From the NCBI GenBank assembly GCA_005788815.1, contig SYAZ01000053.1, positions 1 to 64,000 on the forward strand: DNA of 64,000 bases, written 5' to 3'. Source of the stretch: Actinomycetota bacterium (GTDB lineage: Bacteria; Actinomycetota; Acidimicrobiia; Acidimicrobiales; Ilumatobacteraceae). The translations under genes and the position numbers were made by a program. The notes beneath the pieces are model-generated. The model saw only the letters and a list, made by a program, of their open reading frames with translations, made no database searches and was not told where the DNA came from. Positions 37,884 through 39,982 of this stretch are shown here, one piece after another. Position 1 is the first letter of the stretch. Each line of letters begins with the position of its first letter.

Positions 37884-38636
37884 TCAGCCCATGCCAGCGG
37901 CTGCTAATCGCGAACGTAACTGCAGAACCGCTTTTGTATGAATCTGAGACACACGACTTTCAGTCACGCCGAGTGCATCACCAATTTCAGCAAGCGTTAG
38001 CCCGTCGTCGTAATACAGAATAAGAATTGCTTGTTCGCGCTCGGGAAGCTTGGCAATCTCTTCACGCATTGCACCGCGCAACTCGCCTTCTTCCATTGCG
38101 CGACCAGGCTGTAGGTGAGCATCTTTTTCGTGCGTCGTGTTGTCCATCGCCACATGATCAAGCGGACCAACAGATCCAGCAGCAATGTCGGCCAACCACT
38201 TTTCTAACTCTTCAGTCGTGATTTGTAGTTCATCTGCGATCTCTTCATCGGTAGGTGTTCGACCTAACTGATGCTCTAATCGTGCGATTGCATCTTGCAC
38301 AGAACGCGAATGCGAACGCACTGAACGTGGCACCCAATCCAAAGCACGAAGACCGTCGAGAATTGCGCCTCGAATGCGCGGGATGGCGTACGTTTCAAAC
38401 TTTGCACCATTGGCAGGGTCAAACTTGTCGATTGCGTTCATGAGTCCGAATACTCCAGCACTCACTAAGTCGCCTGTGTCTACCGTGCGAGGCAAACCTG
38501 CAGCAAGACGGCCAGCAACGAACTTCACCAACGAGGCATAGTGCACAACAAGCCAGTCTCTTGCAGTTGATTCTTGCGATGTATGCCAAGCATCCCATGC
38601 AGTGTCAATGGTGTAGCGAAGTGGACGTGCGTTCAT
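37884..38636 (-). CDS. whiG: FliA/WhiG-family RNA polymerase sigma factor
   Basis: 250 aa; DTGDLVSAGVFGLMNAIDKFDPANGAKFETYAIPRIRGAILDGLRALDWVPRSVR. Confidence 0.9.
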   Translation of the reverse strand: MNARPLRYTIDTAWDAWHTSQESTARDWLVVHYASLVKFVAGRLAAGLPRTVDTGDLVSAGVFGLMNAIDKFDPANGAKFETYAIPRIRGAILDGLRALDWVPRSVRSHSRSVQDAIARLEHQLGRTPTDEEIADELQITTEELEKWLADIAAGSVGPLDHVAMDNTTHEKDAHLQPGRAMEEGELRGAMREEIAKLPEREQAILILYYDDGLTLAEIGDALGVTESRVSQIHTKAVLQLRSRLAAAGMG

Positions 38637-39961
38637 GCGCGCGGATGCGATTCTGAGTAGACAAGCCGTAAGCGTTCTTTACTGACGTGTGTGTAACGCT
38701 GCGTAGTGGAGGCATCACTGTGACCGAGAAGTTCCTGAATAGAACGGGTATCTGCTCCGTTATCCATGAGATGCGTCGCAAAAGAATGACGCAGTGCGTG
38801 CGGGTGTGTGCCTCCTGCTATGCCAGCTCGTTCACACGCCTCATCAAGTAGGCGCGTAATGTCGCGTCGACTCACGGGGTGTCCCCGACTAGAAAGCAGT
38901 AGAGCCACTTCGGGCGCTTCACCCAATACTTCGTGACGTACTTGTGCCCATCGCTGCAGCGCAATAGTCGCGGGTTCACTCAGTGGCACGACTCTTTCTT
39001 TTGAGCCCTTACCCATGACGCGCATTGTTGTCATGTCAGACGAAACGCTTTGCACCGTGAGTGAACACACTTCGGATACACGCAATCCACTGCCATACAG
39101 AATCTCTAGCACCACACGATCACGCGCACGTCGCCACTCGGGCGCTTCTTCGTTTTCGGTTGAGACCAAACGAGCAACAGTTTCCTCATCAAGTGGTCGT
39201 GGCAACTTCCCATTGACTTTTGGAGTGTGAACGCCATCTGTGGGATCGCTCTCGGCCATCTTGGTGCGCATTGCCCAAGCAAAATACCTACGCAATGAAG
39301 CAATGCGCCGTGCAAGCGTGCGCGAGGTGGCACCGCGTTCGTGCATTTCAGACAAATAGTCGCGGACATGCTGTTTTCCAACTGTCTGAGGTGTCACGGC
39401 TGGCGCAGTGTCGAGCAACCATTCGGCAAACAGTTCGATATCGCGCCGGTACGCCGAACGAGTATTTGCGGCCGACGCAGTGAGTGAGCCCTCGAATGCA
39501 GCAACACCCCAGTGCGACATACGCGCATCCCGTACGGTGCATGCACCTTTGAGATTGTGACCCGACTGTGCGCCATCATCGGCGACGCAATCACCACACG
39601 ACGACATATGCGAGACACGAACTCGACGCACGGGATGCGCTAACGCATCGTGGCCTTTTGCTGGTTTATGAGTACGAATAAACCAGGTGAAGTATCCAGA
39701 CAATGACGCGACGCGTTGCTCCACTGTCTCCACGGTGTATCCACTGCTCTCAAGTGACACCACATACGCCTCTACATGCTCTTGTGTCACTGATGCCGGC
39801 GACAGCACCCCCATAGCAATCAGAAACGTTGCGGCGTGCGCCACATCGACCTGTCGAGAAGCCCGCGATGCATCGGCAACACGCAATGTCTTGACATAAC
39901 GCGGAATCTCAAAGAGGTCAAGTGAGGGCGTTGTCTTCCGTTGTGTGGCTCCACCGCTCAT
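38633..39961 (-). CDS. tyrosine recombinase, XerC/D-like, with duplicated core-binding domain
   Basis: 442 aa; catalytic R (GSGLRVSEV), K (GKGSKERVVP), HxLRHSFATH, LGHSDASTTQRYTHV; two SAM-like N-terminal repeats. Confidence 0.93.
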   Translation of the reverse strand: MSGGATQRKTTPSLDLFEIPRYVKTLRVADASRASRQVDVAHAATFLIAMGVLSPASVTQEHVEAYVVSLESSGYTVETVEQRVASLSGYFTWFIRTHKPAKGHDALAHPVRRVRVSHMSSCGDCVADDGAQSGHNLKGACTVRDARMSHWGVAAFEGSLTASAANTRSAYRRDIELFAEWLLDTAPAVTPQTVGKQHVRDYLSEMHERGATSRTLARRIASLRRYFAWAMRTKMAESDPTDGVHTPKVNGKLPRPLDEETVARLVSTENEEAPEWRRARDRVVLEILYGSGLRVSEVCSLTVQSVSSDMTTMRVMGKGSKERVVPLSEPATIALQRWAQVRHEVLGEAPEVALLLSSRGHPVSRRDITRLLDEACERAGIAGGTHPHALRHSFATHLMDNGADTRSIQELLGHSDASTTQRYTHVSKERLRLVYSESHPRA

Positions 39962-39982
39962 GCCACCAAGGTACTAGCCGCA

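Follow-up and report, generated by a model that had tools for sequence, protein, structure and literature searches.

A tandem core-binding domain in the housekeeping recombinase XerC, fixed in a genus of freshwater actinobacteria

The window, that is, the whole stretch of 64,000 nucleotides analysed here (contig SYAZ01000053.1 of assembly GCA_005788815.1, Ilumatobacteraceae), encodes a tyrosine recombinase of 442 amino acids within the gene order dprA, xerC, sigma factor, M23 and rpsB, which is the usual neighbourhood of xerC. The protein and its coordinates had been described in a first-pass annotation of this DNA and were verified at the level of the open reading frame, residues 21-250 corresponding to positions 39212-39901. 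The gene, the box preceding it and the parts of its product are the following:

39968..39973, minus strand: TACCTT, a -10-like box of the form TANNNT, 6 bp before the ATG (conserved in 26/26 orthologues)
38633..39961, minus strand: xerC, 442 aa, tyrosine recombinase with an N-terminal duplication of the core-binding domain (open reading frame, PF00589, NCBIfam, synteny)
39662..39922, minus strand: CB1, the extra, diverged core-binding (SAM-like) domain, residues ~14-100 (Pfam, HHalign, AlphaFold, tree of core-binding domains)
39539..39610, minus strand: linker motif H118-x3-C122-x2-C125-x15-C141, a putative metal-binding knuckle (conservation, basic surroundings)
39254..39520, minus strand: CB2, the canonical XerC core-binding domain, residues ~148-236 (Pfam SAM_1 at residues 164-233, AlphaFold helices at 153-232)
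38636..39202, minus strand: catalytic domain, residues ~254-442, with R294, K318, H388, R391, H414 and Y423 (PF00589, conservation)

Few cellular enzymes are as conserved as the Xer recombinases. The C-terminal part of the protein matches PF00589 with E=9.4e-48 over residues 257-429, and the XerC/XerD models of NCBIfam cover residues 163-442. PRK00283 scores above its cut-off, and the best equivalog is TIGR02224 with 324.5 bits, 10.6 bits under the curated cut-off of 335. All six catalytic residues are at least 90% invariant across the XerC/XerD alignment, which bears out the earlier description of an intact RKHRHY domain. Judged by its domains and its gene neighbourhood, the 442-aa protein is the XerC of this genome and belongs to the dif chromosome-dimer resolution system. 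The gene that follows (37884-38636) encodes a sigma factor of the FliA/WhiG type; its start codon and the stop codon of xerC share a 4-bp overlap, a layout that suggests translational coupling.

The first-pass annotation had further claimed that the core-binding domain is tandemly duplicated. When residues 1-144 alone are compared with Pfam, Phage_int_SAM_4 (E=1.5e-5) and SAM_1 (E=0.0015) are matched, both slightly below their curated cut-offs, and the NCBIfam XerC/XerD models give E=1.5e-4 to 6e-4 over residues 28-100. A CB1 profile built with 24 orthologues and compared profile to profile with HHalign matches the XerC core-binding domains of Acidimicrobiales relatives with 99.3% probability (E=1.7e-20), its own CB2 with 98.7% (E=1.8e-16) and the core-binding domain of XerD with 97.2%; the catalytic domain, used as a negative control, gives 0.7%. 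AlphaFold is uninformative on the single XerC sequence (pLDDT 41.5), so an alignment of 39 rows was used instead; in the resulting predicted structure residues 11-120 reach a pLDDT of ~80-96, and the CB1 helices at 19-25, 30-49, 60-73 and 77-97 match in order those of CB2 at 153-159, 165-185, 196-208 and 213-232. The placement of the domains relative to each other is without confidence in this model (pTM 0.62 for the full protein). A second core-binding domain in tandem at residues ~14-100 is confirmed by these profile matches and by the predicted four-helix order, which also repeats the SAM-like fold over the stretch 21-115 where its absence would have spoken against a duplication. The two copies proposed earlier stand, and their limits, given as 21-115 and 152-250, are revised: CB1 spans residues ~14-100, the linker ~101-147, CB2 ~148-236 and the catalytic domain ~254-442.

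CB1 differs from its relatives in surface character. Its net charge is -0.6, compared with +3.9 for CB2 and +7.7 for the XerC core-binding domains of other genera, and in helix D the pattern A-R-R/L-R-R is replaced by E-Q-R/x-S-x with loss of the basic residues. Little of the basic character usual in XerC core-binding domains is left in CB1; some basic residues are kept, R33 and R36 in the helix-B region being invariant. E78, T79, V80, Q82 and W93 are likewise invariant across the orthologues. The linker contains a feature that had gone unremarked: H118, C122, C125 and C141 are invariant in 26/26 orthologues, with the spacing H-x3-C-x2-C-x(9-18)-C, and all cysteines of the module outside this motif are variable. 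The mean net charge of the linker is +4.5. The simplest reading of the four residues is a putative metal knuckle. A linker VRD, taken from TACCGTGAT, was also considered as a relic of the promoter of the second copy and was rejected, the box not being conserved there at the DNA level.

The CB1 module is present in 26/26 members of the genus with a visible gene start; two further members (L026, L028) are cut by contig ends and stand outside the 26. Four metagenome-assembled genomes (MAGs) of the genus lack xerC altogether, which is most simply put down to incompleteness. A profile of the module matches genus members along its full length with E=1e-46 to 1e-61, and in 201 genomes of the family the other genera give one match of core-binding type each, as expected for an XerC of ~300 aa. 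Among 397 genomes of the order and 397 of the phylum nothing comes near the full-length score; the family, order and phylum samples are even draws that do not cover their groups completely, and beyond the family a separate duplication lacking the cysteine linker could have escaped notice. Scanning GTDB contigs with a pattern gave 20 loci, which all seem to belong to the same lineage (titled Ilumatobacteraceae, Acidimicrobiaceae or acIV, many from lakes). Two public MAGs of this acidimicrobial lineage (L064, L066) are titled Bifidobacterium breve and are apparently mislabelled. Longer XerC reading frames in other families (L102-L104, 399-424 aa) were examined as further cases and rejected, each being a protein with a single core-binding domain and a 5' read-through. 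A tblastn search with the N-terminal module against plasmids and phages found no meaningful relative, and in Foldseek comparisons with the PDB and viral models the matches listed were ordinary tyrosine recombinases, none of them a better tandem match. The survey of related XerC proteins proposed with the first-pass annotation thus finds the duplication fixed in the genus and absent elsewhere in the sampled genomes.

In a tree of core-binding domains, CB1 forms one clade (support 100/100) and CB2 another (100/99), and both lie inside the XerC domains of the Acidimicrobiales (98/84), apart from those of XerD and RitA. The tree shows CB1 to have a single origin, from a core-binding domain of XerC type, before the radiation of the genus; built on a short alignment of 88 columns, it does not single out the exact XerC donor. 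Calculated by the Nei-Gojobori method on pairs with pS<0.6, dN/dS has a median of 0.14 in the module, as against 0.037 in CB2 and 0.029 in the catalytic domain; the modules of the orthologues share 29-51% identity with that of the window, the nearest one 83%. By this measure the CB1 module is under purifying selection. The TANNNT box lies 6-7 bp before the xerC start codon in 26/26 orthologues and also precedes the start of the short XerC in several other genera (L034, L036, L044, L096). A TACCGT or TACGGT box is found 6-7 bp before the xerC start across the order (L034, L036, L039, L044, L046, L096). In the light of what is generally known of actinobacterial -10 elements, the box is probably a conserved leaderless xerC promoter, which would fix the start at residue 1 and put the added module behind the original start. 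A start after residue ~145, which would have undone the duplication, is opposed by the conservation of the module, its dN/dS and the start-proximal box, all of which point to residue 1.

The remaining machinery of dimer resolution is ordinary. An XerD of about 311 aa is encoded on a separate contig (C94 of this assembly, G000), so that the standard partner sought since the first pass is present, and XerC and XerD are the only Phage_integrase proteins of the assembly, which is 68% complete. FtsK_gamma is found on contig C54 (E=1.1e-26) and occurs in the genus as in its relatives. Simple dif patterns found no dif in the genus; a profile of 23 order-level dif sites (R1) was therefore used, which yields a top-scoring site in most members, as a rule a single one in each genome. 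That of this genome, whose existence had been a question from the outset, lies at C50:2748-2770. In most members the dif sequence is TACGCCCATAATSTCCGTTATGTAATTW; its XerC arm, CGCCCATAA, is shared with other genera of the family. The outer bases of the XerD arm are AATTW, as against AAAGT in the sister genera g4, g6 and g38, a position at which other genera of the family vary too. In many members (C50:2748-2770; L176-L195) dif overlaps a conserved uncharacterised gene at its stop codon; the product of this gene ends in ...WLLEAAxPVAAASLxPSLRP*. The 60 bp upstream of dif show nothing beyond coding periodicity, and no accessory half-site was found there or in the 60 bp downstream; outside dif the information content is low, apart from this periodicity on the side overlapping the gene. 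A partial dif-like match inside xerC (39890-39910) carries two mismatches and was judged to be due to chance, as the profile puts dif elsewhere. One order-level genome (G281) has 12 dif-like sites over several contigs, compared with one or two in other matching genomes, possibly owing to dif-using integrative elements.

What CB1 does must be judged against these observations. The first-pass annotation had suggested altered arm-site recognition, dimerisation or regulation. The first of these is disfavoured because the XerC arm is unchanged, no further conserved site lies within 60 bp of dif and the positive charge of CB1 is mostly lost; dimerisation or regulation is the preferred class of explanation. 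The ancestor of the genus acquired an in-frame duplicate of a core-binding domain of XerC type, immediately behind the conserved promoter and start codon. Given that XerD and FtsK-gamma are present, that the XerC arm has not changed and that the enzyme's own residues are intact, CB2 and the catalytic domain would still act on dif, binding and cleaving it jointly with XerD as FtsK-gamma directs; both the site and this partner are ordinary. CB1, with much of the basic DNA-reading surface lost, may then act as a docking and regulatory module, tethered via the basic and probably zinc-stabilised H-C-C-C linker and packing on a neighbouring core-binding domain (that of XerD, or that of an XerC bound to the other dif) or against the outside of the synapse, thereby stabilising or gating the XerCD-dif complex. 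We give about even chances to CB1 being such a protein-docking or clamp module that regulates or gates the synapse. Against it, the invariant R33 and R36 leave room for a contact of CB1 with DNA, and the changed outer XerD bases of dif could mean an altered geometry of the complex.

These two arginines also speak for the next alternative, in which CB1 and the basic cysteine linker form an extra DNA clamp outside the XerC arm, on a non-specific or weakly specified site, and raise the affinity for dif in analogy to an arm-binding domain. The core-binding ancestry of CB1 and the linker charge of +4.5 would fit, and in the ALOG proteins domains of CB type that carry an HxxxC zinc module have been proposed to bind DNA (PMC3537659); however, CB1 is near-neutral and lacks the basic helix-D residues, and no conserved half-site occurs within 60 bp on either side of dif, so that we regard such a clamp as possible but doubtful. 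It is unlikely that CB1 recruits another protein to XerC at dif, be it a factor of division, the replication terminus or DNA uptake or what the adjacent genes encode. The module does evolve faster than the enzyme core, as interaction surfaces may, and xerC lies between dprA and the sigma-factor gene overlapping its end; however, none of the results points to a specific partner, and the neighbourhood is the same in genera with a short XerC and does not explain the module. Least probable is that the module survives from an old in-frame duplication as a near-neutral passenger that does nothing by itself. This would agree with its faster evolution and with an XerC arm of dif that has not changed along with it, but not with a dN/dS of ~0.14, a frame intact in every genus member with a visible start, the persistence of the module in small genomes and the invariance of E78/T79/V80/Q82/W93 and H118/C122/C125/C141 at 29-51% module identity (83% for the nearest orthologue). 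Returning to CB1 as a docking module, it is tempting to speculate that this second, non-catalytic domain acts on neighbouring subunits via a metal- or redox-sensitive linker, which would amount to metal- or redox-gated dimer resolution with the XerC arm and FtsK-gamma control kept; we consider this more specific idea improbable, if a little less so than a mere passenger.

Several known systems share parts of this architecture. In the integrases with an arm-binding domain, such as lambda Int and those of the Tn916/CTnDOT type, an extra N-terminal domain reads arm sites. This XerC likewise has an extra N-terminal domain ahead of the core-binding and catalytic domains; however, the arm-binding domain is of another domain type, whereas here the addition is a core-binding domain and no conserved site was found within 60 bp of dif. 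In the ALOG domains (PMC3537659), a helical domain of CB type, derived from XerC/D, is joined to a predicted zinc module with an HxxxC motif, a combination that CB1 and its putative knuckle resemble; they belong, however, to plant developmental regulators and are mostly solo domains, and their ribbon (HxxxC...CxC) is inserted between helices 2 and 3, whereas the motif described here follows helix 4.

Tandem core-binding domains have been published for RitA of the recombinase-in-trio transposons; a large survey states that no other tyrosine recombinases have them (PMC8138268). RitA (410-412 aa in the pHG1 copies P0002 and P0003, two proteins identified as RitA by their position in trios, following PMC2864759) also has two sequential core-binding domains before the catalytic domain. 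In contrast to XerC, RitA proteins are mobile-element enzymes encoded in trios with a different catalytic-domain sequence, and in the two pHG1 proteins the core-binding domains stand back to back without an H-C-C-C linker. The xerC gene is not part of a ritA-ritB-ritC trio, its neighbours being dprA and the sigma-factor gene in an assembly with two tyrosine recombinases. Nor does CB1 group with the RitA domains: it falls inside the XerC core-binding domains and RitA outside, which, as the RitA branches are long, is moderate evidence against common ancestry. No publication on an XerC with a tandem core-binding domain was found in the open-access literature, and subscription journals could hold one; XerC itself and the tandem domains of RitA were already known, and what is new is the tandem arrangement in a housekeeping XerC.

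The canonical actinobacterial XerC (TIGR02224/PRK00283) shares with this protein CB2 and the catalytic domain, the RKHRHY residues, the locus, the TANNNT box and the XerC arm of dif, but has ~300 aa and a single core-binding domain, without CB1 or the cysteine linker. Taken together, these freshwater actinobacteria carry a vertically inherited, genus-fixed duplication of the core-binding domain in an otherwise ordinary dimer-resolution machinery, and their sister genera with a short XerC and matching dif sites provide a natural before-and-after comparison for a core-binding domain becoming an accessory module of a recombinase.
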